Part shown: positions 7,013 through 24,743 of the stretch, piece after piece
Numbering within the stretch: position 1 is the stretch's first letter
Layout of the letters: each line of letters begins with the position of its first letter
DNA from: Verrucomicrobiota bacterium
GTDB taxonomy: Bacteria > Verrucomicrobiota > Verrucomicrobiia > Verrucomicrobiales > DEV007
Direction of reading: 5' to 3'
DNA: 64,000 nucleotides
Assembly (NCBI GenBank): GCA_018970725.1
Contig: JAGWVU010000025.1
Coordinates: 1 to 64,000, forward strand
Program-made: the position numbers and the translations under genes
The notes under the pieces: generated by a model
Seen by the model: only the letters and a program-made list of their open reading frames with translations
What the model was told of the DNA's origin: nothing
Database searches by the model: none

Positions 7013-7585
7013 TTACTCCTTCTTGGGAGCGCCTTCCGCCGGGGCTTTGGTCTCGGTCGGGAAGGGGACGAACTTGAGGACGGTTCCGTTGATGCAGTAA
7101 CGCTTGTCGGTCGGGGTGTTGTAGCCTTCACCGGTGAAGACGTGCCCGAGGTGGCCGTCGCACACGGCGCAACGGACTTCGGTTCTTGCATACCCCAAAT
7201 GGTAATCTGTCGAGGTCTTGATGTTCTTGGCCTTGGAAGGGTCGTAAAACGAGGGCCAGCCGCAGTGGGAATCGAACTTCTCCTTGGAACTGAACAGTTC
7301 CGTTCCACAACCCGCACAAAAGTAGGTGCCGCCGCCCTGGTGTTTGAACTCGCTGTAAACCGGACCGTTGGACCGCTCCGTCCCGGCCTGGCGGAGGATG
7401 CGGTATTGTTCCGGGGTGAGGATCTTGCGCCATTCTTCGTCGGTCTTCTCGACGGCTTTGGCGGGTTGTTCGGGGGCCTGCTTGAGGACTTCGATGATCG
7501 GCTTGGCGGGATCGGCGGCCATGAGGAGCAAGGGGGCGGAAGAGATCGCGGCCAAGGCGGGGATGAGTCGGGCTGGGAAGGTCAT
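7013..7585 (-). CDS. msrB: Exported peptide-methionine (R)-S-oxide reductase
   Basis: The 190-residue product has a signal peptide (PALAAISSAPLLLMAADP), so it acts outside the cytoplasm, where it reduces the R-epimer of methionine sulfoxide in proteins. Family residues are all present: zinc ligands C90/C93 (CAGC) and C139/C142 (CAVC), HCGWPSF with C108, DGHLGHVF, and catalytic C164 in RYCINGTVL. Its ATG at 7585 overlaps the msrA stop by 4 bp, so the pair is coupled. The C-terminal ~20 residues are a Pro/Ala/Lys tail not needed for the fold. Confidence 0.93.
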   Translation of the reverse strand: MTFPARLIPALAAISSAPLLLMAADPAKPIIEVLKQAPEQPAKAVEKTDEEWRKILTPEQYRILRQAGTERSNGPVYSEFKHQGGGTYFCAGCGTELFSSKEKFDSHCGWPSFYDPSKAKNIKTSTDYHLGYARTEVRCAVCDGHLGHVFTGEGYNTPTDKRYCINGTVLKFVPFPTETKAPAEGAPKKE

Positions 7586-8208
7586 TCGGGCGACTGGTTG
7601 GTTTGAGTGGGGGCGTTCTCGAGGTTGAGTTTCTTCAACTTGGGGCTGATCACGACCCGGCAATACCCGGCGAACTTGTTCCGGTTGTAATAGTTCTGGT
7701 GGGATTCCTTGGCCGGGTAGAAGGTGGAGGCGGCGCTGATTTCCGTCACAATGGGGTCTTTGAAGTGCGGTTGCGCCTCTTTGCGGGAAGCCTCGGCGAC
7801 TTGTTTCTGTTCCGGGGAATGGTAAAAAATGGCGGAACGGTATTGGGTGCCTTCGTCGGCTCCCTGGCGGTTCAAGGTCGTGGGGTCGTGCAGTTGCCAG
7901 AAGATTTCGACGAGTTCTTTGAAGGAGACCTTGGCCGGATCGAACTCCACCTGGATGACCTCGGCATGACCGGTGGTGCCCTCGCAGACCTGTTCGTAAC
8001 TCGGGTTCGGCACGGAACCGCCCATGAAACCGGAGGTGGACTTCAGGACGCCTTCGACGCGTTGCATGACGGCTTCGGTGCACCAATAACAGCCGGCCCC
8101 GAAGGTGGCGGTCTCGGTTTTCACGGGATCTGCGGCAGAAACGGAACCGGCGAGAGCGGTGGACATGGCGGCGATCAGGATGGGGAACGAATGGTTCGAG
8201 AGAGACAT
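7582..8208 (-). CDS. msrA: Exported peptide-methionine (S)-S-oxide reductase
   Basis: The 208-residue protein starts with a signal peptide (ILIAAMSTALAGSVSAAD). The catalytic motif FGAGCYWCTEAV follows, with C40 as nucleophile. GFMGGSVPNPSYEQVC, GHAEVIQVEFD, FWQLHDPTTLNRQG, GTQYRSAIFY and the C-terminal YYNRNKFAGYC, with a likely resolving Cys, complete the family pattern. It reduces the S-epimer of Met sulfoxide. It is the first gene of a two-gene operon with msrB, giving full periplasmic Met repair by two separate proteins instead of the fused MsrAB seen elsewhere. Confidence 0.93.
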   Translation of the reverse strand: MSLSNHSFPILIAAMSTALAGSVSAADPVKTETATFGAGCYWCTEAVMQRVEGVLKSTSGFMGGSVPNPSYEQVCEGTTGHAEVIQVEFDPAKVSFKELVEIFWQLHDPTTLNRQGADEGTQYRSAIFYHSPEQKQVAEASRKEAQPHFKDPIVTEISAASTFYPAKESHQNYYNRNKFAGYCRVVISPKLKKLNLENAPTQTNQSPE

Positions 8209-9742: not shown

Positions 9743-9812
9743 CTTGCCGACGGGACGGGTGCGACGGAAAAACCATTTTCCATCTTCCGGACTCTGGCTA
9801 GAGTGCCCCCAC

Positions 9813-11624
9813 GTGAGTTACCAGGTCTTTGCGAGGAAATACCGGCCCAGGACGTTTGCCGATCTGTTGGGGCAGGACCACGTGGTCCGCACGCTCCGCA
9901 ACGCGATCGAGATGGACCGGTTGGCGCACGCCTACCTATTCGTCGGGCCGCGGGGCACCGGCAAGACCTCGACTGCGCGGATCTTTGCCAAGGCCTTGAA
10001 TTGCTCCGGGGGCCCGAAGATCGAGTTTGACCCCGACGAGGACATCTGCCGGGAAATCGCCGAGGGCATCAGTCTGGACGTGCTGGAAATCGACGGGGCC
10101 TCGAACAACGGGGTGGACCACGTCCGGGAGCTGCGGGAAACGGTGAAGTTTTCTCCGGCGAAGTGTCGTTACAAGATTTACTACATCGATGAGGTGCACA
10201 TGCTGAGCGCGGCCGCCTTCAACGCCTTGTTGAAGACCTTGGAAGAGCCGCCTCCGCACGTGAAATTCATCTTCGCCACGACCGAGGCGCAGAAGGTCCT
10301 CCCGACCATCATCAGCCGCTGCCAGCGCTTCGATTTGCGGCGGATCCCGACTAAAACGATTGCCGATCACCTGCTCCACATCGCGCGGTTGGAGAAGGTG
10401 GAGCTGGAGGAGAAGGCGGCCTATGCCATCGCCAAGGGGGCGGATGGCGGGATGCGGGACGCGCAATCGATGCTGGACCAGCTCGTGGCTTTTTGCGGCA
10501 GCCGGATCGAGGAGGCGAACGTGCAGGAAGTCTTCGGATTCACCCCGATGGAACGGATCGCGGACATGGCGGACTCGCTGCTGGCGCGCCGCGTGGTCGA
10601 GTCCACGGCGGTCATCCATGAGCAGGCGGCCCGGGGGCGGGACCTTTCGCTCTTTCTCGCGGATTTGATCGGCTATCTCCGGCATCTGGTGGTGGCGGTG
10701 ATCGATCCCAAAAACGAGTTCGGCGAGTTGACCTCCGAAGCGGTGGGGCGGCTGCGGGAACAGGCCCGGCTGAGCACACCGGAACGGCTGTTGCGCCTCA
10801 TCGATCATTTCGCCGCCACCGAGGCCAAGCTGAAATGGGCCCCGAACAAGGGGTTGCATCTGGAAATCGCGGTGATCAAGGCGATGCAGATTCTCGGGGA
10901 AACCACCTTGAGTGATGTCATCGGACTCCTCCACCAAACCGGGGACGCGATCGGCGTTGATCTGGCCCCGGGACCTGCTTCCGCCGGGAGTCGCGCCGGG
11001 GGCGAAGCGCCCCCCCCACCGCGCAAACCGGCCCCGAAAGCGGAGGTGAGCCGGTCCATGGAAGAGCGGGACGGCGATGCCGGGTCGGTCGATGCCCGTG
11101 AGGCGGTCTCGCCGGCCCGGCCGAAAGGGCCGCTTTCCGGGGCGGCGCTCTGGGCGGGAGTGGTCGACGTGATGACGAAGGAGCGGCCGCTCTTTGGAAG
11201 TTGCGTGCAGGCGGCGGTTTTTGCCGAGCAGACGGAAAAGAAACTGGTGGTGCATTTCTCCCGGGCGGACTCCTTTTCCCGGGATTCCCTGTTGCGGGAA
11301 AGCAACCGGACCTTCGTCGAGGAATTGATCAAGGAACTGGCCGGCAAGCCGCTCGGCTTCGTGGCGGAGATCCGGGACGGTCTCGAGGCGGCGCCGAAAC
11401 CGGCCTTGGAACCGGAACCACCGGCCCCGGACGGCGCGGTCAAGGCAAAGCCCCCGGCCAAAAAAAAAATAGCGGATGACGCGGCCGGACCGGCTCCCGC
11501 CGTGGAAAAACCGGCGGCCCCGGTGGAAGTCAAGGCGGCGGAACCGGTGGAGGCGGCGACCTTCCTCAAGGATCCCATGATCGAGGCCGCCATGGAGCTT
11601 TTCGACGCGAGTCTGGAGTCCTGA
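9813..11624 (+). CDS. dnaX: DNA polymerase III subunit gamma/tau
   Basis: The GTG at 9813 gives VSYQVFARKYRPRTF, the usual DnaX start, and a 603-residue product. Motifs are Walker A GPRGTGKTS (~45), DEVHML (Walker B, ~125), LLKTLEEPP, and the sensor/arginine-finger region SRCQRFDLRR. The AAA+ clamp-loader core covers ~1-370, then a Pro/Ala-rich linker and a C-terminal tau-like region from ~440. The zinc module after the first Cys (ALNC) is degenerate: the usual CxxCxxC cluster is replaced by an acidic FDPDEDIC. Role: loads the sliding clamp at replication forks. It is followed by ebfC, the common bacterial order. Confidence 0.95.
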   Translation: MSYQVFARKYRPRTFADLLGQDHVVRTLRNAIEMDRLAHAYLFVGPRGTGKTSTARIFAKALNCSGGPKIEFDPDEDICREIAEGISLDVLEIDGASNNGVDHVRELRETVKFSPAKCRYKIYYIDEVHMLSAAAFNALLKTLEEPPPHVKFIFATTEAQKVLPTIISRCQRFDLRRIPTKTIADHLLHIARLEKVELEEKAAYAIAKGADGGMRDAQSMLDQLVAFCGSRIEEANVQEVFGFTPMERIADMADSLLARRVVESTAVIHEQAARGRDLSLFLADLIGYLRHLVVAVIDPKNEFGELTSEAVGRLREQARLSTPERLLRLIDHFAATEAKLKWAPNKGLHLEIAVIKAMQILGETTLSDVIGLLHQTGDAIGVDLAPGPASAGSRAGGEAPPPPRKPAPKAEVSRSMEERDGDAGSVDAREAVSPARPKGPLSGAALWAGVVDVMTKERPLFGSCVQAAVFAEQTEKKLVVHFSRADSFSRDSLLRESNRTFVEELIKELAGKPLGFVAEIRDGLEAAPKPALEPEPPAPDGAVKAKPPAKKKIADDAAGPAPAVEKPAAPVEVKAAEPVEAATFLKDPMIEAAMELFDASLES

Positions 11625-11671
11625 CAGGGCACCGCGCCATTCCCCACTCACCATCCAACCAAGAGACGATT

Positions 11672-11983
11672 ATGAATCCTGCCAAATTGATGAAGCAGAT
11701 GCAGAAAATGCAGCAAGACATGCAGAAGGCCCAGGATGACCTGGCCAAACGGCAGGTCGAGGTCACGGTCGGCGGCGGCAGTGTCACCGTGGTGGCCAAT
11801 TGCGCCGGAGACGTTCTCTCCATTAAGATCAAGAAGGAAGCGGTCGATCCAGACGACGTGGAGATGTTGGAGGACCTGATCCTGAGCGGCGTGAAGCAGG
11901 CGATCGATCAGGGGCGCGCGACGGCCGGCAAGGAAATGTCCAAACTCACGGCCGGGTTGCCGATTCCTCCGGGATTCATGTGA
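11672..11983 (+). CDS. ebfC: YbaB/EbfC family nucleoid-associated protein
   Basis: The 103-residue protein begins MNPAKLMKQMQKMQQDMQKA, the typical amphipathic N-terminal helix. A glycine-containing sheet (VTVGGGSVTVVANCAGDV) and a C-terminal helix ending AGLPIPPGF are also family signatures. Family members form dimers that bind DNA and often sit between dnaX and recR. Here recR is absent from this position and the next gene is rsmA, whose GTG overlaps the ebfC stop by 4 bp. Confidence 0.93.
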   Translation: MNPAKLMKQMQKMQQDMQKAQDDLAKRQVEVTVGGGSVTVVANCAGDVLSIKIKKEAVDPDDVEMLEDLILSGVKQAIDQGRATAGKEMSKLTAGLPIPPGFM

Positions 11984-13374
11984 ACCGGACCGAACTGCAG
12001 GACCTGCTGTCTTCCCTGGAGTTGCTTCCGAGCCGCAAGCTCGGGCAGAACTTCCTCGTGGACCGGAATGTGGCCGCTTGGATCGCGGACCGGTTGGAGA
12101 TCTCACCGGGGGATACCGTGGTCGAGGTCGGTCCCGGCACGGGCTCGTTGACCCGGGAGGTGCTGGCGCGAACGCAGAATCTGGTGTTGGTCGAAAAGGA
12201 TGTCCGGCTGGCCGCTTTTCTGGCCGAAAAACTGGCGGAGGTTTCCTCGGTCGAGATGCATCATGAGGACGCGTGCGCGTTCGACACCCGGCTGCTCTAT
12301 CCGCGGCGCCCGGTCAAGTTGATCGGGAACCTGCCTTACTCCGCCGGCGGGGAGATCATCCGGAACTTTCTCGGCATCCATTCCCCGGTGGAAGAGGCGG
12401 TGCTGATGTTGCAGCGGGAAGTCGCGGAACGGATCGCGGCCGCTCCGGGAGGCAAGGCCTACGGCGTGCTCACCCTGCGGGTCCAGGTCCGCTGGGAGGT
12501 CAGTCTGCTGAAGCATGTCGGGCCGGATTGTTTTCATCCCCGGCCCAAGGTGGACTCCACCGTGATCCGGCTCACGCCCCGGGCCGCCGATGACTTGCCG
12601 GTGTTTGATCACCGGCTGTTCGACGCCACGATCCGCCGCGGCTTTGCCCAGCGGCGCAAGCAGCTGCGCAATGGCCTGGAGATCGGGGTCGAGCGGTGGC
12701 GGGAAATCTGCGGCCTTCTGGGGGTGGCGGAGACCGTGCGGGGGGAGGATTTATCCTTGAGGCAGTGGGTGGATTTGACGAACCTGCTGGATGAACATCC
12801 GCTCAAGGACAACCCTCAGCGACAGGATGAACTGTTCGATGTGGTCGACGACGCCAACGAGGTGATCGGCCGGGAGACGCGGGGGGTGGTGCACCGGGAA
12901 CGGATGAAGCATCGGGCAGTGCATGTTTTTCTGTTTCACCGCAACGGCGATCTCTTTTTGCAGCGCCGGTCCCGGCTCAAGGATGTGGCCCCGGGGCGAT
13001 GGGATTCCAGCGCGGCCGGGCATCTCGACGCCGGGGAAGAGTATGCGGCGGCGGCGCGACGCGAACTGCTCGAGGAGTTGGGGATCGACGCGCCCACGGA
13101 GCGGGTCGCCTTGCTTGGGCCCGAGGAGCGGAACGGTTTTGAATTCGTGGAGTTGCACCGGGCGGAATTGCCGGTGGGCATGAAGCCCCGTTGGCCGGCC
13201 AGCGAGGTGGAATTCGGACAATTTTTTCCGGTGGCAACAATCGACGAATGGGTGCGGCGGCGGCCGCAGGATTTTGCGGGAGGGTTCCGTCAGTGCTGGG
13301 AGGCCTGGCAAGCGGGTGCGGATCAGCCCCGCCTTTTTTCCTCTTCGGGATCCTCGGCCGAACCACCTCCATAG
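11980..13374 (+). CDS. rsmA: 16S rRNA dimethyladenosine transferase fused to a Nudix hydrolase
   Basis: The GTG start overlaps the ebfC stop. Residues 1-~268 are RsmA/KsgA: RKLGQNFLVD, SAM motif VVEVGPGTGSLTREV (~47-61), catalytic NLPY (117-120), and FHPRPKVDSTVIRL. It dimethylates two adjacent adenines near the 3' end of 16S rRNA. Residues ~280-445 are a complete Nudix domain, with the box matching Gx5Ex7REUxEExGU exactly at 347-369 (GHLDAGEE ... RELLEELGI). The opening DVVDDANEVIGRETR resembles isopentenyl-diphosphate-isomerase-type or YfcD-type Nudix proteins. The reading frame is continuous with no stop between domains. The last 52 bp overlap the convergent giant gene. Confidence 0.92.
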   Translation: MNRTELQDLLSSLELLPSRKLGQNFLVDRNVAAWIADRLEISPGDTVVEVGPGTGSLTREVLARTQNLVLVEKDVRLAAFLAEKLAEVSSVEMHHEDACAFDTRLLYPRRPVKLIGNLPYSAGGEIIRNFLGIHSPVEEAVLMLQREVAERIAAAPGGKAYGVLTLRVQVRWEVSLLKHVGPDCFHPRPKVDSTVIRLTPRAADDLPVFDHRLFDATIRRGFAQRRKQLRNGLEIGVERWREICGLLGVAETVRGEDLSLRQWVDLTNLLDEHPLKDNPQRQDELFDVVDDANEVIGRETRGVVHRERMKHRAVHVFLFHRNGDLFLQRRSRLKDVAPGRWDSSAAGHLDAGEEYAAAARRELLEELGIDAPTERVALLGPEERNGFEFVELHRAELPVGMKPRWPASEVEFGQFFPVATIDEWVRRRPQDFAGGFRQCWEAWQAGADQPRLFSSSGSSAEPPP

Positions 13375-16300
13375 CCGAGAACCTCCACGGAAATGAGGGA
13401 GGGCACTTCGGTGACCTCGGTTGGCGCGGCGGACTTTTTACTGGCGGCTTCGGTGGCGGCTGAGGCGGCGTTGCTGTTGGCGGCGGAGGCCCCGGCGGCC
13501 CCGGTCATCCCTCCGATGTTCGGTGCGGCCACGGCCGGTGCGGTCGGTGCGCCGGTGGAGCTGCCCCCCACGGAAATGTTGGAGGCATTGACCACGGCGG
13601 TGGCGGCGAGGTTGATGTTTCCGGTCACCCGGATGCCGGCGTCACCGGCATCGATGATCCCGGACGGGGCGATGAGGTCGACGTTACCGGGCTTGACGTT
13701 GGCGACGGCGGCCAGAACCCCGATCCCGCCCCCGGTGGAGAGACCCGCCAGATCGGTTTCCACGGCTGCGGACTGGGGATCAATGACCACCCGGGTGGGC
13801 GGCGCGGAGGCGACGGTCTTGGAGGCGGCCCCAGCAGCGATGTCGCCTTCCGAGGACCAGATCAAGAGATCGCCGCCGCGCAGGGTGAAGATCCGTCCGA
13901 CGCCGATGTCGACGCTCTGGTTGGCGAAGATGGAGACTTTGCCGCCGGCCTCGGTGACAATGCCCGGTGGAACGGCGGCATCTGCCAGCAAGGTGTTGGA
14001 AAGGGTGAGACCACCGTTCGGGGCGAAGAGGGCGATATCCCCGCCGGTGCGGGTCCGGATGTTGCGGGTTTGGGCGGAGATGGACCCTGAGGTGCCGGCG
14101 CTTCCGAAGAGGGAATCGATTGCGGCGAAGCCGCCCTTGTAGTTTCCGAAGCCCGGGCTGTCCGGATCGTTGTAAGCCCGGCCCGCGTCGCGAAGCACGA
14201 GGTAAAAGACTTCGAGGGCGACTTTGGCCTGTTGCTCCTGATCGAGTGCTGGGAAGTTGGTGATGCCCAGTTCCTTGAGATAGGCAGCCCCTGAGGGAAT
14301 GCCCGGAACCGGAGCCTTGCCGCTGAGGAACGTGTCGATGAAATCTTGAATGGCTAGGCTGCTGTTGAAGAGGCTGGTGGCGGGTCCAAGCCCGGCTCCG
14401 GCGAAAAGATCCGCCCCGGCGAAGGAAAGGCCGGGGTTGCGGATATTGCCGAGAGTGACGATGCCGGAGCCGGTGCCATCGGTGTTGGTTGGGCCCGTCC
14501 CGAGATCGAGATTGCGCCCGGCGAGAATTTGCAGGGTGCCAGGGCCTCCGATGTGGATATCACCGGCGAGCGGGCCGCTGTTCAAGGCCGGTAAGTTGCC
14601 CGGGGCGAGCGAAGCCTTGCGGAGCGGTGAGGCGGCGTTGTAAGGAAGGATATCCCGACCGGAGGAGACGATGGTGATATCGTTGTCGCGGGCGTTTTGC
14701 AGATAGAAGGAGATATCCGTCACGTCGTTGGAGGCGTGCAACCGGGAGAACTTGGGGCTGAAGAGGTTGAAGCCGGTGAGGTTGCCCTTGAGGGCGTAGA
14801 TGCGCAAGGGATCGGCGTCGCCCGCATGAAGGGGCCCGGAGGCGTGGAGTGCCAGTTTGGTTTGGGTGACGCCGAACACGCCGGTGATGGAGCCCGAATC
14901 CGTGAGCGCGGCATCGAAGTCCGTCAGGAAGCCGGAACGGGTGATGCTGCTGTCGCTGGGCCTGGAGGTGCCGACGATTGAGACGTAAGCCAAGGGGGTT
15001 TGCGGGGTCCGGAAGGTGGCGGGAGAGGCGTCGGACACGTTGATCGTGGCGGAGCGCCAGGTTTGGGTTACTTGGCCGGGAGCAATGAAGTTGGAGCGGC
15101 CCGAGGGCTGGAATCCGTTGACGGAACCGCCTCCGGCGATCATCTCGAGTTGGCCGGTGGCGGAGGGAAAGAGGGAGAAGGAACCGACGACGTTCACGTT
15201 TCCGGCGAGCGAGGTGACTTCCAATTTGGGCGGACGCAGGCCGGCCACGGCGGCGAAAGGTTGGACGTTGTCTTCGGCGAGACGCAGCCATGGCTGGCGG
15301 AAGGCCGCGCCGGTGGAGGCCGGGATGCTCTGCCGTTCCATCCAGGTCTGCAAGATATCCGCCGGGGAGGTGCGGTCGGAGGTGGTGACTTCATTGCGGA
15401 GGGTGACGCTGCCACCGAGCGAGGTGATGCGGACGTTGCTCTCCGGGGTGAAGGTGCTGAAGTAGTTCTTATACCAGAAACCATTGTTCTGGCCTTGGGG
15501 CAGGAGGAAGGGGTTGGCCATGGGGCCCATGAGAATGTCCCCTGCCGCGGTGACGTCGAAGGCGCTCTTGCCGACAAACAGGGTCGTGGGCAGCCAGGTG
15601 GCGGGATCGAGTGTGGCGGAGTCCGGGTCGTTCAAACTCTGCAGGATGCCCGGGGAGGGGGACCGGGTTTTGTTGGTGGTGATCTGTGAACCGGCCGAGA
15701 GGGTTCCCTTGCCGCGTTCCAGATAGTAAATCCCGCCGTCCAGATTCCCTCCGGCCCGCACGACGAGGTCGCCTCCGCCCAACTCCTGAAGGGTTCCCGC
15801 GGCAGCACTGCCCTGGGCGGCTCGGGCGTTGGTGGGAATCACGGCATCGAAGTTCCGGATACTTCCACCGGCGGTGAGGGTCACGTTGCCACCCCCCAGA
15901 GCCCCGGAGGTTTGGAAGAAGTTGGAGAAATCAACCCACCACGTGGTGGACGCAGCCTGGTCGTTGAGGGAGCCGAGCGTGAGTCTGGCGTAGTTGCCAT
16001 CGTCCCCGACGAACCCGCGGCGGTAGAGCCAGTTGTTGGGAAGTTGCCGGGATGAATCGTCGATCAGGCCGGAGTTGTTCCTGGTTTTGCGCTCGAGGTT
16101 GTCCCCGGCCGAGATGGAGAGGTTTCCTCCCGCCATCGTGTAGTAGGCGCCGTAAGCTTGTTGGAGCCGGCCGAGGGCCCCTTGGTTGAGATTGGAGTTC
16201 AGAATCGGCGTTACGAAGTCATTGGCCGCGGCAACCGAGGTCGGTGACGCCACTTGGGTGCCTGCGGTGTAGATGGACGCCAGGGGGTTGAGAAGGCGGA

Positions 16301-19300
16301 CGCTCCGGGCCACGTTGATGTCGATGTCTCCGGAACCGGTGCGGATGACTTGGAAATAGGTCGTGGCCAGACTGGAGGTGAGGGCGTTGGTTCCCCCGGT
16401 GGCGGTGGCGGCCCCGGCGTTTTTGCCAAGGTCGAGGAAGCCTTGATCGCTGCCGATCGCGCCCGTTCCGGTTCCCGGCAGCACGCTGCGGTAGTTGGCG
16501 GACGCAAGGTCGGATCCGGCGCTGAGCCGGTAGGACCAGGATTGCCGGTTGGCGGGGAGATTGGGATTGGCGGCGGATGGCGGGGCCAGCCATAGGGTGT
16601 TTTGGGGAGCCGTTCCCGAGGTGTTCACGGTGAAACCGTCGCTCAATGCGTTGAAGAGAACGAGGCTTTGCGCGGCCCGGATCGTGAGGACGCCGGGAGC
16701 GGACTGGGGACCGAAACGGAAGCCCGAGAGGTTCCAATCCGCGGAGGTGGCCGACGAGGAAGAGCCCATGGTGAGGCTACCGGACGGGTTGATGATCTCC
16801 GCTCCCGGCACCAGGATGAGGTCCAAGGTGCCGGAAGGATCGATCTTGCTGCGCATCGCGTTGTAGGCGGGTGTGGCGCTGCCCGCATTTCCGAAGAGGG
16901 CCGTGGCGTCCGTCCGGATCTGGTCCCGCAAGGCATTGTCGAGCAGTCCGCTGCTTTGGTTGTAGAGTCTGTAGGCTTCGACCATGATCGAAGCGGCATT
17001 TTGGATGGAGGTGCCAATCGCTCCCATTTGAATCGTGGTGTGGGTGGCTTCATCCTGGGGCGCTCTCAGGTTCAGCGTGCCGCTGAATTTGCCGGACGCA
17101 GCACTGGAGGACGATTTCTCGTCAACGCCGAGGTCGATGGTTCCGCCGGCCAGATTGAGTTGGGCCGAGGGGGAAATGGAACCGCTCCGGGAGGTTCCCG
17201 CCGCAAGGGAGACGGCGCCCCCCTTGCCGGCGGCATCGAAGACCTCGGCCGAGGCGTCGAGCGCCGCACCGGCTTGGAGCAAGAGGCTGCCCCGCGCGGC
17301 GAGATCGATCGTGCCGCCAGTGCGACCGGAGGCGTTAATGGTGCCCGATATGGTGAGATTTCCGTCATCCACGGCCACGCGGTAGGTCTTGGAGGTGGCT
17401 GTGCCCCCGATGGCCAGATTCCCGGTGCGGATGCGGTAGTCGCGGAATTGGGTGAAGGAACCCGCGTTCAACAGGGCATCGACAGTGGTCAGGTCGTTCC
17501 CGCTGACTCGCGCGGCATCGAGGCGGAAGGAACCGGTGTTCCGCCCGGCCGCGGCCGAGCCAAGGATCGTGCCGTTCAAGTCAAAGGATCCGTTGACCGT
17601 GCGCACGCTGAGGCTTCCGGCATCTCCCGATCCGGTGGCGGAAAGGTCGATCGTTGAGAGCGATCCGAGGGAGACCGAACCGAGATCCGCAGTGATGCCG
17701 ACGGATCCGGCGTTGGTGTAACGCGTTTCATCGAGAAACGTCAGGGCGCGTCCCGTGAGGTTGATGGCCGCCGCCTTGGACAGGCCGAGCGTGGCGTCGC
17801 CAGTGCGGGCGAGGACGGAGAGGCTGCCGCTGGGCAGGGAGATGTTTCCGTCAAGGCTGACGGACTGGCCGGTGAGATTCAACTTGGCTCCCAAACCTCC
17901 CGAGGCGGTGGCCCCGCTGGTTGGCGCGGTCGAAGAAATCAGTTCCAGCATGCCGTCCGCCAGAATGTCCGTGCTGGCGGCACCGGCCGAAGTCAGAAGC
18001 GGGGTGGCGAGCTCCAGCCGGCCCGGCACGGAAAAGCTGCCTACTCCGCTGCTCAGAATGAGCGAGGAGGCGGCGAGCTGCACGTTCTGGAATCGCTCGA
18101 CCCGGTAGCTGTCGGCCTGCAGCGCGATCTCGGCCGCGTCGAGCACAAGGGAACCGGCCAGCGGCGATGCGGAAACGGCAGAGGTCCGGCGCCCGGACGC
18201 GTTGCCCAAGGCGATCCGGTCCGCTTGGAAGCGCACCTCGGCGGCGCCGGTATCGAAGCCCCGGATCGCATTTGCCTGAAGGGAGAGCGAATCCAGGGAA
18301 GCGCCCCCGAAGGTGCCGGCTCCATAGAGGTCGATCGAGGTGTAGCTGAGGAGGGAAATGGAGGTTGCCTCGCTTTGCAGGGCGTCGAGGGTGTTGCGGG
18401 TGAGGCTGAGGAAGTCGTTGGCGGGGATGGAGGCGGAACCGGCGAGTTGCAGGCTGATCAGGCCGCCGCTGAGGGCGATGTTCGAAGCGGTCAGGGTGGC
18501 GGAGGGTGCCAAGCCGAAAGCCCCGGTGGAATCCAGGGTGAGGCTCTCACCGGTGAGCGCAACATCGTTGCCCACGGTAATGGACGGAAGAAGAGAGTTG
18601 GTCAGGCCCGAGCGAATGACGGGAGCGCTGGAAGCCCCGCTGACCCGGACCGCGGCGCCGTCACCGCTCCCGGGAGAGGCGTTGTTACCGATCAGGAAGG
18701 CATCCTGGGAGGCGCTTCCGGTCCCCCGGATTTCCGAATTGGCAGCGAGAGCGATGGATTGGCGGGCCGCGAGGATGATGTCGGAACCGGTGAGCGGTGC
18801 CCCGGCATTGTCGAGTGTGATCCGGTTGGTGGTCACGGAGGCCGGCGCCGAACTTCCGGAGGCGGAGCGGGCCCCCCCGATGAGGAGACTTTCCGCGCGG
18901 ATCTGGCTCAGGAGGCGGCTGCTCAAGGCAAGGGTCCCGGGACTGCCGCCGGATCCATCCGCGTTGATCAGAATGTCGATCGGGCTGCTGATGTCGACCA
19001 CGCTGCCGCGACCACCTGCCGGACTGCCGCCGAGAATATCGCCCCGGAGTTGCAAGGACGCCGTGGAGGAGAAAGCGAGATAACCGGCATCGATCGGCAG
19101 CCTCGGAGCCGGAAGATCCCGGGCGAGGGCGGCTTGGCGGAGGAAGGAGTTGGCGGGGGCGAGCTGGTATTCCGCCCGCCGGGTGACGACATCGCGCGGA
19201 GAGACCTCGAAACGTTCCATCGAGGTGACGCCCGAGCGACCGGGGGCGAGATTGTTGGCGCGGTAACCGTTGACGAGAGCGGCTCCTTCGGGGAGCAGGT

Positions 19301-22300
19301 TGGAACCGGCCGGGTCTCCGGAGACCGGGCGGATGAGGTAGGCCCCGGCGAGCAAGGCATAGCGGGCTGGCAACATGGTGTAGGTGCCGGCTGGCAAGCC
19401 CGCCCCCGAGCCCAGCGTGACTTGATCCCCGACTCTCAGGTTGTTGTTCAGATAGCCCGGCTGACCTTGGAGGCTGGTGGCGGTGCTGCGGTTGTTGAAG
19501 GGGGCGAAGGGGGCGTAGTTGAATCCGTAGCTTGGAATCACGGCGAACGAGGAGGATGAGGCCAGAATGTCTTCGGGGCCTCCGTTGCCCTCGACCCAGC
19601 GGTAGGCGAAAACATCGCCTCCACCCCGCAGGTCGACGGTGGCGCCCGCCTCCGCCGCGATGTTCTGGCCGCCCAGCCGGATGCTCTTCGCGGGAAGACC
19701 GCCCGAGGTGATGTCGTTGCCCGCGGGATCGATCCATGAGAGACCGTCGAAGCTGATCCCGTAGGGGAGCACAAGGGCCTTGCCGGATCTTGGATCCACC
19801 GCCGAAACCGAGGTCACGCTGTTGGCGCCGAGATTGATTTCCGTGGTGAGCGGAGTGGCGATGGCGGGACCGGACACCGGGTTGACGGGGGCGCTGCCGG
19901 TTCCATCCCAGCCCAGGGAAATGGTGCCGAAGGGGGCGCGAAGGGTGCCGCTTTGTGTCACCCGGGCGGATTGAAGGGTGAGGGCGCCGCCGGCGGACCA
20001 GGGGAGCGGGCGGGAGGAACCGCCCGAGACGGTGATGGAGCCTTGCCGGGCCACGCCCCCCGCGGTGTAATTGTAGGCGTAGATGTTGAACTTCCCGGCC
20101 GTCGTCGGGTAGACTTGGCCCGCTTCCAAAACCATGTCACCGGCCATCAGCAGGTTGCCCGCCCCGCGGATATCCCCCCGGGGAGCGGAAAACCGGGCGT
20201 TTCCGATGTTTTGCAGCACAAGGTTTCCGGTCTCGAACAGATCTGTCTCCACCTCCAGACGGCCGGAACCGAAGTTCGGGGCGAGGTAATACTGAGTGAT
20301 CAGCCCGCTGTCGTTCCTCGTGAACGGAATGATCGGGTCGAGCGCGAGGAAGGGCCGCGGAATCGGTTGCCCCAATTTGATGGCCGGGGCTTGCAGGGTC
20401 GCCACTCCCTCGGTGGCAATCACCCCGCCGGAACCAACGCTCAGCTGGCCCGGGACCGCCACGGTGACGTCCCCGAGGAACCGCACGTTCCCATCCAGCG
20501 TCAGCGAGTTGATCCCGCTGCCTCGCAACCGTTCGGCGACGAAGGTCCCCACGCCGGGCAGAGATTGGCCGGATGAATTTAGCAGAGGTTGTCCGATTCC
20601 CCGGCTACCGACGGCATTGGTTAATGAGAAGCCGCTTTGGCTGACTTCGAGATTGATATCTGCAGAGGTGAAGCTGGCGGAGGAGATGAAGCGCGATGAC
20701 GCGACCGTCAGGCTTCCGCCGATGGCCGACCGGCCCCCGCTGCGCGCCACGAGGGTGGAGTCCGCGTAGAGCATCTGTCCTCCTTCCAAAGTGATTCTTC
20801 CGGCGTTTGTGTCCAAACGAACGGCCGTGAATTCCTCCCCCTTGGGACCCGTCAGGGTGCGATTGTTGATGGCGGCATAGCTGTAGGCCAAGTCCTTGAT
20901 CCCGCTGGTGCCGGAGACATCGATGACCGAACCCCGCTCCGCCACAATGTTGCCGCTGACCTTGACGGACCCACCCGGGGTGATGAGATCGGAACGCGCG
21001 CCCCGTTCTCCCGTGAGAGGAACCACCTTGCCGGCCGTCGAAAGTTTGGCCCCGGACCCCAGATAAACCGTGGTCCGGGCTTCCCCCGGGGCGGAACTTG
21101 CCGTCGCCAACGATTTGGCTCCGTTGACCGTGATCGATCCGCCGGGGGCGGCGACCGAGCCGTCGAGGGTGACGGTTTGCCCGTTGAAGGTTACCTGACT
21201 CAGGGCATCGGTCAGGATGTAGGCCCCGCTCCCGAGGTTCACATCACCCCGGACGACGAGACCAAGAACTGGATCCGAAGCCCCTCCGGCGGAAAAGCTG
21301 AGGGCAACCGGCGACCGGATGCCTTCGGATAGAACGTCCCGGCGGACGCGAAACCCCGTGTTTTCACCGGGGCGGTTGGCGACGGCGGTAAGGCTGCCGA
21401 CGATCGGCCGGATGAAGGTTCCCGGAGCGATGTCGATCCCCGGGATGTAGGCCTCGACCCCGCCCGGTCCGTTTGGAATCGGGAGGCGGACGATTCCGGC
21501 GGCCTCAAGATTGAATTCGGAGAATCCGCCCTTGCTGAAAAAGGAGGGGGTCAATTTCAGTACGTCGGGGTGGGCGACCTGACCTCCGATTTGGAAGCCC
21601 GGAGCGCCGAGGGAGAGGGAGCCGCCCTTGGCTCCGGAGAATCCCCGGAGTTCCCCGTTCAAGACGAGCAGGCCTCCCAGAACGGAGTCCACGTTCGTGT
21701 CCGAACCGGCGCTTATGGCGATGGAGCCGCCGTCGCCGAAGGAGAAAAGGCGATTTTCGTATTTCACGCCGCCGGAGGCGTCCAGCACGGAACCACGGTT
21801 GAGGGAAACATTGTATCCTTTCAGGGTCAGGGAGCCGCCCCCGAGAACGGAGGGGAGCAACGCGGAGGCCCCCCGGGAAAGGTCGACGAGAAGGCCGGCG
21901 ACGCTCAGGGTGGAGGAGGAACCGATGGTCAGGTTGCCCCGGCCCGGCAGGGCCACCGGGCTTCCGGCCGGGTTTTCGTTTTGCAGGTTGATGGCGTCCA
22001 GTGTCTGGTTGTTTGCGGTCAGCAAGATCTTCCCGCCCGGCGACAGGATATCCCCGGCGATGCTGAGGTTGGAACCGTTGAGCTCGATTTTTCCGAGCGG
22101 CACCGTTTCGAGTTTCACCGCGGAGGGCACGGAGATGTTCCCATCCGGGTTGTTGACTTTGAGCAATCCGAATCCGGAGCGATCCGGATTGAGGAGGGAG
22201 GGGGAAAGGGCCACGGTATCCCGCCGTTCGGTAGGGAGCGGGAGGGGATCCCCGGAAATGTCGACCGAGAAATTCCCTACCCGGGGCAGGGAAACTCCGG

Positions 22301-24743
22301 AGAAAATGACGGACGGGGGCGTGGGAGAGTAAGCGGGGGTGGTGGGGTATTTGGTGTCGTCCGCGAGGAAGGAGACTTGTAAGGAGCTGAGGGGAGCGGG
22401 TTGGTCGAGTTGATGCTGGCCGTTCAGGGTGCGCCCGACGATTTGACCGTCGAGAGCCATGGAAGCGGCGTTGAGAACAAGTTTTCCGCCCGTGGCCCCG
22501 ATGAAGTATCCCAGTTCCGTGCGTTCCCCTGACATCGCGAGGGGTTGGGCGAAGGTCCGGGTGACACCCCATTTCGTGCTGCTGGAGGTCGAGGTTCCGT
22601 CGTAGACACCGGTGTAGACGCGGTCCGGGGTGGCGTCCTTGATATCGATGATGAGACCGTTCGAGATCAGGCGGGTGGTTTGCACGGTGCCCCCTTCGAT
22701 ATAGCTGAAGCCCCCGGAGACGTCGACCTTGGAGGTGGGTTGCATCACCAGGGAGCCGCCCGAGATCAGGCTGACCGATCCGCCGCCGGCTGTGAGTTCG
22801 GCGACGTCCCGCTGGAGGAGGTTCACATATCCGGAGACGTTGCCGAGCGGCGTTCCGACCCAGGAATATCCGTTGTAGGTGCCCTGTTGCCGGGCATCCA
22901 CGGTGATCGGGACGCCCCGGAGCACGCCATCCCGCTGCACCGGGGAACGGGCGAACTCGGCACCGCGGAGTTCAAGGTTGAGCAGCCCGCGTGCGATCGG
23001 GATGGAAGCGGAGACGCTGCCGGAGGCGTCGATGGTGACTTCCCCGTCCAGATAGACCTGCCCGCCGGAGCGGACAAACGTTGCCACGGGGACGGAACCG
23101 CTGATCAAATTGAAACGTCCGGCGCGGACGGTGATGTCGCCGCTGTTGGCCTGAAGCGTCGAGCCGCTCTGGAAAAATACCGTTTTGCCTGTGACGTTGA
23201 CCGCGGAATTGAGGGCCAACCGGGTGCCGATGACGGTTTCGGCGCTTTCGGTTTCCGGCCGAATCCGGGTGACGCTTCCGGGGCCGAACTCGACCGAGCC
23301 CGTGGTGATCGGAAGGAAAGGCCTTCCGGTGGACTGATTGGTCGGGTTGTAGCCGGAGTTCGGGATCGATTCGTAGATGGCCTCGATGTCGATGCGACCG
23401 TTGTAAGATACCGAGGTTGAGCTGTCGATCACCCCGTTCTGCCGGACGGCGCGTCCCGCCAGCGTCACGTTGCCGCGCATGGATTCCACGATCCCGTTCA
23501 CTGTGACGGTTCCCGCAGAAACGGGATCGCCGGCAGCGGCGACCGCGCCGACGAAGACATCGAGTCCGCGGAGGCTGGCATCCGAGGAGGCATGGCCATC
23601 GATCCCCACCTGCAGCCCGGCCGCGAGGATGGTTTGGCCATCCGGCGTGCTGATGGTCCCGCCGTTGGTCACGTTGGCCCCGACCAGCATGATACGCCCC
23701 CCGGCTTTGGCGGAGTCGGTCGGGCTGGAAAGAACGGCTCCGGGCTGAACGGTGACATCGCCGTAACGGCCTGAGGCGACGAACGGTTTTCCCGGAGTGA
23801 AGGGAGGCGTTCCCGACTTGCCTTGCGGGATATCGATCCCGCTGAAGAGGAACTGCGCGTCCGGGTTGTTCAGCAGCCCCCGTTGGATCAGGTTGGTGTT
23901 GATCGGAATCGAGGTGGCCACGAAGGTGGGCATCCGGACCTGGCTGTTGGGGCCGAAGATGATGCCGTTCCGGTTGATCACGTAGACCTGGCCATCGGCC
24001 TTGATGGAGCCCAAAATCTGGCTCGGCACGCCGGTCGGATCCGTGATCTGGTTGAACGCGACCCATTTCTTGGTGTTTGCCCCGCCGGCGGTCTGGTCAT
24101 AGGTCAGGGTGGTTTTGCGGCCCACGTGGAAGGTCTTCCAACTGAGCAAGGCGGTCTGGGCGGTCTGCCGGATCCGGACGTTGCTGGCGTCCCCGGGTTG
24201 ATGCCCGACCGGTTGGCCCGTGGGCAGGTCGGCTCCCGTCCACGGGGCGGTTCCCGCCGATACGCCGGGGTCGACCTCCAAGCCTCCCGGGTGCAATCCA
24301 TTGGCCACGTCCGGAAGAGGGACGTTTCCGGGAAGGTTCGGGTTGATCCCCAGGGAATCCCGCCCGGCGGTGGTTGCCGCCGCACGGGCTGCTTCCTGAA
24401 AACGTTGGGCTTCCTGAATGGTCCGGGTGGTTCGGGCCAAAGTATCCCGCGCATTGGCACGGGCTGCCGCTGCCGCCGCGTTGATGTTCTGGTTCTGGCT
24501 GGCGGCTCGTTGCGCCTGATCTCCCGCCGGCACCCCACCGCGGAGGATGTCCCCGGCCCGCGCCCCGGAGAGCGGGAGCAATGCGAGCAAGGCAACCATG
24601 GAAAAGCCCCTTCCGACGAGCATCGGAAGCGTTCTGCTGTCGACGCGATCCTCACCGCGGATGGCCTGTTGATCGCCCGGGCATCGGGGCGCTAACCGCG
24701 CGATCTCACGGCGCTTTTTAACGGGCTTGAAGGTGCAAGACAT
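13323..24743 (-). CDS. Giant filamentous-haemagglutinin-like exoprotein with DUF3739 C-terminus
   Basis: The 3,806-residue product takes up about 18% of the window. After a signal region (PMLVGRGFSMVALLALLPLS, then GARAGD) and an Ala/Gln/Arg-rich coil comes the TPS-type carbohydrate-dependent haemagglutination domain (~185-310; e.g. TALLSWKTFHVG, GQVYVINRNGIIFGPNSQV). Some 2,500 residues of Gly/Ser/Asn-rich beta-helix repeats follow. The C-terminal part matches the DUF3739 family (VDLIAPSGIIDAGDAGIRV, NASNISVGGSSTGAP, SVEVLGYGGG). It is expected to be secreted by a TpsB transporter and to form a fibrous surface adhesin or matrix protein. No TpsB gene is in the window. The ATG at 24743 gives a 63-residue leader; ATG 24623 gives an ordinary signal peptide and is a good alternative. 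Confidence 0.9.
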   Translation of the reverse strand: MSCTFKPVKKRREIARLAPRCPGDQQAIRGEDRVDSRTLPMLVGRGFSMVALLALLPLSGARAGDILRGGVPAGDQAQRAASQNQNINAAAAAARANARDTLARTTRTIQEAQRFQEAARAAATTAGRDSLGINPNLPGNVPLPDVANGLHPGGLEVDPGVSAGTAPWTGADLPTGQPVGHQPGDASNVRIRQTAQTALLSWKTFHVGRKTTLTYDQTAGGANTKKWVAFNQITDPTGVPSQILGSIKADGQVYVINRNGIIFGPNSQVRMPTFVATSIPINTNLIQRGLLNNPDAQFLFSGIDIPQGKSGTPPFTPGKPFVASGRYGDVTVQPGAVLSSPTDSAKAGGRIMLVGANVTNGGTISTPDGQTILAAGLQVGIDGHASSDASLRGLDVFVGAVAAAGDPVSAGTVTVNGIVESMRGNVTLAGRAVRQNGVIDSSTSVSYNGRIDIEAIYESIPNSGYNPTNQSTGRPFLPITTGSVEFGPGSVTRIRPETESAETVIGTRLALNSAVNVTGKTVFFQSGSTLQANSGDITVRAGRFNLISGSVPVATFVRSGGQVYLDGEVTIDASGSVSASIPIARGLLNLELRGAEFARSPVQRDGVLRGVPITVDARQQGTYNGYSWVGTPLGNVSGYVNLLQRDVAELTAGGGSVSLISGGSLVMQPTSKVDVSGGFSYIEGGTVQTTRLISNGLIIDIKDATPDRVYTGVYDGTSTSSSTKWGVTRTFAQPLAMSGERTELGYFIGATGGKLVLNAASMALDGQIVGRTLNGQHQLDQPAPLSSLQVSFLADDTKYPTTPAYSPTPPSVIFSGVSLPRVGNFSVDISGDPLPLPTERRDTVALSPSLLNPDRSGFGLLKVNNPDGNISVPSAVKLETVPLGKIELNGSNLSIAGDILSPGGKILLTANNQTLDAINLQNENPAGSPVALPGRGNLTIGSSSTLSVAGLLVDLSRGASALLPSVLGGGSLTLKGYNVSLNRGSVLDASGGVKYENRLFSFGDGGSIAISAGSDTNVDSVLGGLLVLNGELRGFSGAKGGSLSLGAPGFQIGGQVAHPDVLKLTPSFFSKGGFSEFNLEAAGIVRLPIPNGPGGVEAYIPGIDIAPGTFIRPIVGSLTAVANRPGENTGFRVRRDVLSEGIRSPVALSFSAGGASDPVLGLVVRGDVNLGSGAYILTDALSQVTFNGQTVTLDGSVAAPGGSITVNGAKSLATASSAPGEARTTVYLGSGAKLSTAGKVVPLTGERGARSDLITPGGSVKVSGNIVAERGSVIDVSGTSGIKDLAYSYAAINNRTLTGPKGEEFTAVRLDTNAGRITLEGGQMLYADSTLVARSGGRSAIGGSLTVASSRFISSASFTSADINLEVSQSGFSLTNAVGSRGIGQPLLNSSGQSLPGVGTFVAERLRGSGINSLTLDGNVRFLGDVTVAVPGQLSVGSGGVIATEGVATLQAPAIKLGQPIPRPFLALDPIIPFTRNDSGLITQYYLAPNFGSGRLEVETDLFETGNLVLQNIGNARFSAPRGDIRGAGNLLMAGDMVLEAGQVYPTTAGKFNIYAYNYTAGGVARQGSITVSGGSSRPLPWSAGGALTLQSARVTQSGTLRAPFGTISLGWDGTGSAPVNPVSGPAIATPLTTEINLGANSVTSVSAVDPRSGKALVLPYGISFDGLSWIDPAGNDITSGGLPAKSIRLGGQNIAAEAGATVDLRGGGDVFAYRWVEGNGGPEDILASSSSFAVIPSYGFNYAPFAPFNNRSTATSLQGQPGYLNNNLRVGDQVTLGSGAGLPAGTYTMLPARYALLAGAYLIRPVSGDPAGSNLLPEGAALVNGYRANNLAPGRSGVTSMERFEVSPRDVVTRRAEYQLAPANSFLRQAALARDLPAPRLPIDAGYLAFSSTASLQLRGDILGGSPAGGRGSVVDISSPIDILINADGSGGSPGTLALSSRLLSQIRAESLLIGGARSASGSSAPASVTTNRITLDNAGAPLTGSDIILAARQSIALAANSEIRGTGSASQDAFLIGNNASPGSGDGAAVRVSGASSAPVIRSGLTNSLLPSITVGNDVALTGESLTLDSTGAFGLAPSATLTASNIALSGGLISLQLAGSASIPANDFLSLTRNTLDALQSEATSISLLSYTSIDLYGAGTFGGASLDSLSLQANAIRGFDTGAAEVRFQADRIALGNASGRRTSAVSASPLAGSLVLDAAEIALQADSYRVERFQNVQLAASSLILSSGVGSFSVPGRLELATPLLTSAGAASTDILADGMLELISSTAPTSGATASGGLGAKLNLTGQSVSLDGNISLPSGSLSVLARTGDATLGLSKAAAINLTGRALTFLDETRYTNAGSVGITADLGSVSLGSLSTIDLSATGSGDAGSLSVRTVNGSFDLNGTILGSAAAGRNTGSFRLDAARVSGNDLTTVDALLNAGSFTQFRDYRIRTGNLAIGGTATSKTYRVAVDDGNLTISGTINASGRTGGTIDLAARGSLLLQAGAALDASAEVFDAAGKGGAVSLAAGTSRSGSISPSAQLNLAGGTIDLGVDEKSSSSAASGKFSGTLNLRAPQDEATHTTIQMGAIGTSIQNAASIMVEAYRLYNQSSGLLDNALRDQIRTDATALFGNAGSATPAYNAMRSKIDPSGTLDLILVPGAEIINPSGSLTMGSSSSATSADWNLSGFRFGPQSAPGVLTIRAAQSLVLFNALSDGFTVNTSGTAPQNTLWLAPPSAANPNLPANRQSWSYRLSAGSDLASANYRSVLPGTGTGAIGSDQGFLDLGKNAGAATATGGTNALTSSLATTYFQVIRTGSGDIDINVARSVRLLNPLASIYTAGTQVASPTSVAAANDFVTPILNSNLNQGALGRLQQAYGAYYTMAGGNLSISAGDNLERKTRNNSGLIDDSSRQLPNNWLYRRGFVGDDGNYARLTLGSLNDQAASTTWWVDFSNFFQTSGALGGGNVTLTAGGSIRNFDAVIPTNARAAQGSAAAGTLQELGGGDLVVRAGGNLDGGIYYLERGKGTLSAGSQITTNKTRSPSPGILQSLNDPDSATLDPATWLPTTLFVGKSAFDVTAAGDILMGPMANPFLLPQGQNNGFWYKNYFSTFTPESNVRITSLGGSVTLRNEVTTSDRTSPADILQTWMERQSIPASTGAAFRQPWLRLAEDNVQPFAAVAGLRPPKLEVTSLAGNVNVVGSFSLFPSATGQLEMIAGGGSVNGFQPSGRSNFIAPGQVTQTWRSATINVSDASPATFRTPQTPLAYVSIVGTSRPSDSSITRSGFLTDFDAALTDSGSITGVFGVTQTKLALHASGPLHAGDADPLRIYALKGNLTGFNLFSPKFSRLHASNDVTDISFYLQNARDNDITIVSSGRDILPYNAASPLRKASLAPGNLPALNSGPLAGDIHIGGPGTLQILAGRNLDLGTGPTNTDGTGSGIVTLGNIRNPGLSFAGADLFAGAGLGPATSLFNSSLAIQDFIDTFLSGKAPVPGIPSGAAYLKELGITNFPALDQEQQAKVALEVFYLVLRDAGRAYNDPDSPGFGNYKGGFAAIDSLFGSAGTSGSISAQTRNIRTRTGGDIALFAPNGGLTLSNTLLADAAVPPGIVTEAGGKVSIFANQSVDIGVGRIFTLRGGDLLIWSSEGDIAAGAASKTVASAPPTRVVIDPQSAAVETDLAGLSTGGGIGVLAAVANVKPGNVDLIAPSGIIDAGDAGIRVTGNINLAATAVVNASNISVGGSSTGAPTAPAVAAPNIGGMTGAAGASAANSNAASAATEAASKKSAAPTEVTEVPSLISVEVLGYGGGSAEDPEEEKRRG

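Follow-up and report, generated by a model that had tools for sequence, protein, structure and literature searches.

The rRNA methyltransferase RsmA, which adds the final methyl groups to the small ribosomal RNA, occurs almost everywhere and as a rule is a house-keeping enzyme of one domain. In the verrucomicrobial DNA described here, it is joined in one reading frame to a Nudix domain, and this fusion is genuine, ancient and clade-wide. The protein is probably a bifunctional RsmA-Nudix enzyme born from a translationally coupled pair of genes, with both activities predicted from sequence and fold. The window, which is the whole stretch of 64,000 nucleotides that was analysed, contains the fusion gene and its parts at the following positions.

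11672 to 11983, forward strand: ebfC
11980 to 11983, forward strand: GTGA, a four-base overlap of the GTG start of the fusion gene with the TGA stop of ebfC
11980 to 13374, forward strand: rsmA-nudix fusion gene, 464 residues, GTG start
11980 to 12783, forward strand: RsmA/KsgA domain, residues 1-268
12784 to 12828, forward strand: linker, residues 269-283
12829 to 13317, forward strand: Nudix domain, assigned to the group of YfcD, DR_0079 and type I IPP isomerase, residues 284-446
13018 to 13086, forward strand: Nudix box G-x5-E-x7-REUxEExGU, residues 347-369
13318 to 13371, forward strand: C-terminal tail without conservation, residues 447-464; it overlaps a convergent gene at that gene's 3' end

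The fusion gene and its surroundings

The frame holds 464 open codons from the GTG and encodes an entire RsmA/KsgA, followed by a short linker and then by a Nudix domain that is likewise complete. The Pfam family RrnaAD matches residues 19-271 (E 5e-58) and NUDIX matches residues 309-421 (E 2e-16). A sequence-only reading of this DNA had described an RsmA fused in frame to a Nudix hydrolase, and its domain names and boundaries are borne out by Pfam, by TIGR00755 and by the exact box at residues 347-369. The overlap with ebfC that it had reported is also real. This feature is local: dnaX and ebfC lie upstream of the fusion gene at 9744-11983 on the forward strand, and this order is found at only 4 of the 158 fused loci.

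Downstream, a 3806-residue open reading frame on the reverse strand (13323-24743) carries a TPS secretion domain (PF05860) at its N-terminus and a domain of the filamentous haemagglutinin family (PF12545) at its C-terminus. The 3' ends of this frame and of the fusion gene overlap tail to tail by 52 bp, within the unconserved tail. Elsewhere in the window (7013-8208, reverse strand), msrA (PF01625) and msrB/SelR (PF01641) are neighbours on overlapping open reading frames, and the frame with the msrB domain is open far upstream of that domain.

Strong purifying selection acts on both domains and on the linker between them. Computed against two congeners, dN/dS is 0.06-0.08 for the RsmA part and 0.08-0.09 for the Nudix part, and the 15-residue linker has a dN of 0 against either congener. 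The last 18 residues are unconserved, with a dN/dS of about 0.8, and the pLDDT falls below 50 from residue 452. An AlphaFold2 model of the whole chain (pLDDT 94.3, pTM 0.90) consists of two domains, and this one predicted structure suggests that the RsmA and Nudix domains are held in a defined arrangement.

Distribution of the fusion

Surveys across Verrucomicrobiota, which the sequence-only reading had proposed, found a full-length co-linear homologue in 36 of 37 relatives, the window's own genome being excluded; the sole relative without a match is a genome that is 85% complete. Among the 387 genomes of a phylum survey, every one of the 45 from the window's order has the co-linear fusion, as do ten more genomes of the class, belonging to families f10, f11, f15, f18, f19 and f21. 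In the listed genomes of other classes, the match in that frame is limited to the RsmA part. A survey of the class with the Nudix part, together with the loci fetched from it, added the fused families f85, f107, f109, f113 and f120. The named loci retrieved with a Nudix alignment are fused without exception (80 of 80) and all belong to Verrucomicrobiota; the names include Akkermansia, Prosthecobacter, Verrucomicrobium, Rubritalea, Roseibacillus, Phragmitibacter, Chthoniobacter and Spartobacteria. A close check of 25 genomes from other classes showed no fusion, their Nudix relatives being unlinked, and nowhere in the plasmid records is 80% of the query covered.

The sequence-only reading had itself named a sequencing frameshift as a possible origin of the long frame. 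Because co-linear homologues occur in nearly all of the relatives and in every genome of the order, neither chance nor a frameshift explains the fusion. More generally, the notion that an assembly or sequencing artefact joined two genes deserves practically no weight: no support for it was found, though the genes do stand apart in the majority of families that lie outside the fused clades, and it is refuted by an in-frame fusion at 158 of the 177 loci examined, isolate assemblies and single-contig genomes among them.

An internal translation start in the linker was considered and rejected. In-frame starts with a Shine-Dalgarno-like 4-mer lie near the linker in 23 of 52 fused genes, as compared with 10-21 of 52 for control stretches of the same genes, which is no clear enrichment, and no internal start is conserved.

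One genome titled Akkermansia muciniphila (MiE-14oct19-53, locus L098) has a Nudix half that is 83% identical to that of the window and much nearer to it than those of other Akkermansia-titled genomes. The name of this genome is probably wrong.

The open-access literature that was searched contains no relevant paper combining RsmA, KsgA or dimethyladenosine transferase with Nudix. Domain databases may already contain the architecture.

Probable path from gene pair to fusion

In sister families, rsmA and the Nudix gene are separate. At L058, L060, L074, L075, L208, L210 and L213, the stop of one and the start of the other share an ATGA, which is the classical mark of translationally coupled genes. 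The two genes are adjacent at about a dozen other loci, mostly with short gaps, and a further set of families has the orthologous Nudix gene elsewhere, unlinked to rsmA. Homologues with separate starts near 12800, which the sequence-only reading had set against its own interpretation, are thus absent among the fused genes but do occur in other families as adjacent genes, where they show how the fusion arose.

In a concatenated tree of 77 genomes, on which changes were counted without polarity, the fused rows stand in three places: a large clade that includes the window, family f85, and the single locus L076. The free tree thus gives three events. L076 is fused, yet it is nested among neighbours that have the ATGA overlap, and its junction shows a net loss of 2 nt relative to them, the ATG being gone. 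A single clade of all fused rows, corresponding to one origin, is rejected (p-AU 0.0002) owing to L076, whereas a constraint that groups the large clade with f85 is acceptable (p 0.54). At least two independent fusions are therefore claimed, rather than at least three. The RsmA ends and Nudix starts in the fusions coincide with those of the separate proteins, so that the two were joined end to end, plus a linker. Adjacency probably preceded fusion. The unlinked, the adjacent and translationally coupled, and the fused states are all alive in sister families, which makes RsmA-Nudix a good natural case of evolution from a gene pair to a fusion.

The RsmA half

Residues 17-269 match the ksgA model TIGR00755, a full-length equivalog, with 228 bits against a cut-off of 171. 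The motifs of the family are present: QNF (motif X) at 23-25, SAM motif I with E49, G51 and G53, motif IV NLPY at 117-120, and RRK at 225-227. The catalytic motifs are kept and near-invariant in the fused as in the unfused forms. No second RsmA was found in the window's genome, which is 96.5% complete, and the fusion protein is its sole RsmA. The whole clade to which Akkermansia belongs carries RsmA solely as this putative two-enzyme protein.

The Nudix half

The Nudix box is exact, and its acidic residues vary hardly or not at all, whether the forms are fused or unfused. When the domain is folded alone (pLDDT 95), the nearest folds are those of YfcD (2fkb, Z 23.3), DR_0079 (2o5f, Z 21.8) and type I IPP isomerase (1hx3, Z 21.7), and other Nudix enzymes stand well below this group, with Z at most 17.4. 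H305, H311, H348 and E388 are invariant in 77 of 77 genomes and, in an alignment with Idi and YfcD of E. coli, face H25, H32, H69 and E116 of the isomerase Idi, its metal ligands. The position of Idi Cys67, the catalytic cysteine, is occupied by Ala346 in the window's protein and by Ala or Ser in 75 of the 77 genomes, Ala in most fused forms and Ser in most unfused ones.

A true IPP isomerase was considered and rejected, as the catalytic Cys is absent and the IPP_isom_1 score, about 53 bits, is below the cut-off of 105.8. The score against the YfcD equivalog NF011922, 72.8 bits, is likewise below its cut-off of 152. The domain combines the positions of an isomerase-type metal site with a complete hydrolase box and lacks the catalytic Cys, so it is expected to hydrolyse and not to isomerise; it is probably a hydrolase. 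The Nudix half defines a subfamily between YfcD and IPP isomerase.

At the aligned positions 345-346, unfused Nudix orthologues (L001-L097 and L208-L220) often read WDSSCSGH or WDSSASGH, and the main fused clade reads WDSSAAGH. This is a small difference near the active site that tracks the fusion state.

What the two activities may be

According to the explanation that we favour, the N-terminal part, as the only RsmA/KsgA of the cell, would dimethylate the two adjacent adenines in helix 45 of 16S rRNA. The C-terminal third would act as a Nudix hydrolase, its catalytic residues being intact, and cleave a small diphosphate. Candidate substrates are an isoprenoid diphosphate such as IPP or DMAPP, or a (pyrimidine) nucleotide, both classes being suggested by distant relatives of 22-27% identity. 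The genes rsmA and nudix, adjacent and coupled (typically by ATGA), would have been joined in frame within Verrucomicrobiia at least two times, and the fusion would then have been fixed across one large clade. Its immediate effect would be an obligatory 1:1 co-production and tethering of the two enzymes.

The substrate of the Nudix half, and any coupling of the two reactions, are matters of conjecture, as is the sequence-only reading's idea that the fusion ties ribosome maturation to the clearing or sensing of a diphosphate. The isoprenoid or nucleotide diphosphate proposed in that reading is compatible with the subfamily of the domain. The plant protein AtNUDX3 presumably has a HRAVH...SSAGH signature similar to that of the Nudix half, and its Nudix domain likewise shares a chain with a second domain. 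Both AtNudx1 and AtNudx3 remove phosphate from IPP and DMAPP (PMC6779861). DR_0079 is reported to prefer cytosine (deoxy)ribonucleoside di- and triphosphates (Buchko et al. 2008, as cited in PMC5389931 and PMC5158307). With these characterised relatives as a guide, the indications diverge: DR_0079 suggests cytosine nucleotides, and AtNudx3 suggests IPP and DMAPP. The MEP pathway gene ispE is present in the window's genome, where no isomerase of either type scores above cut-off.

A more far-reaching reading is that the fusion physically couples 30S maturation to a Nudix enzyme hydrolysing IPP/DMAPP or nucleotide diphosphates, so that the level of the metabolite and ribosome assembly would be co-regulated by way of a single protein across this clade, Akkermansia included. 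The enzyme would then be of an intermediate type, with an isomerase-like metal site and a hydrolase box. This reading is unlikely. The fusion supplies a concrete partner for testing whether RsmA is metabolically coupled at all.

The fusion might also be neutral, a small indel having joined two unrelated house-keeping neighbours, each of which works as before. This has a real, if minority, chance of being correct. Starting from the ATGA overlap, an indel of 1-2 nt suffices, and as overlapping neighbours fuse easily, repeated fusion requires no selective advantage. No further conserved neighbour ties the pair to any pathway, and in many families of the class the orthologues are still unlinked, so function does not depend on tethering. 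Against neutrality, the adjacency of rsmA and nudix recurs in many families whose neighbours are otherwise different, and no case of the fusion having come apart was seen within the main fused clade.

Two other roles of the Nudix domain have been weighed against the bifunctional enzyme. The domain might act on pre-30S RNA, for instance by taking off a cap or a 5' pyrophosphate, and RsmA would then serve as the module that recruits it to the ribosome. Its physical tethering to an enzyme that binds pre-30S particles would agree with this, as would the partly similar gene pairing rsmA-apaG-apaH of E. coli. The domain groups, however, with YfcD, DR_0079 and IPP isomerase (VIA-align Z 20-23), RppH being clearly lower (Z about 14), and the models of RppH, an RNA pyrophosphohydrolase, match weakly and below cut-off, which makes an RNA substrate improbable. 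More improbable still is a non-catalytic or weakly catalytic sensor that tunes RsmA in response to a nucleotide or isoprenoid diphosphate. The confidently predicted arrangement of the two domains would suit such a sensor, and other Nudix domains, such as that of NrtR, do act as regulators (PMC8865458); a pure sensor, however, would not need the full catalytic box, which is nearly or fully invariant whether fused or not.

Comparison with known systems

Residues 1-271 of the fusion protein match the whole RsmA/KsgA family, whose members dimethylate A1518 and A1519 of 16S rRNA. The RsmA half superimposes on B. subtilis KsgA (6ift) with Z 31.3 and an rmsd of 2.2 over 272 residues, and it is 34% identical to E. 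coli RsmA. The canonical enzyme stops at about residue 270, whereas here a Nudix domain of about 165 residues continues the same chain.

The best match of the Nudix half, in both sequence and fold, is the E. coli Nudix hydrolase YfcD (2fkb, rmsd 1.8 over 159 residues). YfcD lacks counterparts of H305, H348 and E388, keeping only the second of the histidines (H311), and its gene stands alone, near ackA-pta, unlike the Nudix half of the fusion. Idi, the type I IPP isomerase, has the same fold but is without the full REUxEExGU box. DR_0079 of Deinococcus radiodurans (2o5f) also has the same fold, with 24% identity, and is a lone Nudix domain by sequence and gene; its box ends in Asn instead of Gly (PMC5389931).

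The neighbourhoods of rsmA in other bacteria offer suggestive parallels, at most by analogy. Next to rsmA in E. coli come apaG and then apaH, which encodes a dinucleoside polyphosphatase. In a Listeria record with the order rnmV-rsmA-veg-ispE, rsmA lies two genes from the isoprenoid-precursor gene ispE. In both cases the genes are separate and the enzymes unrelated.
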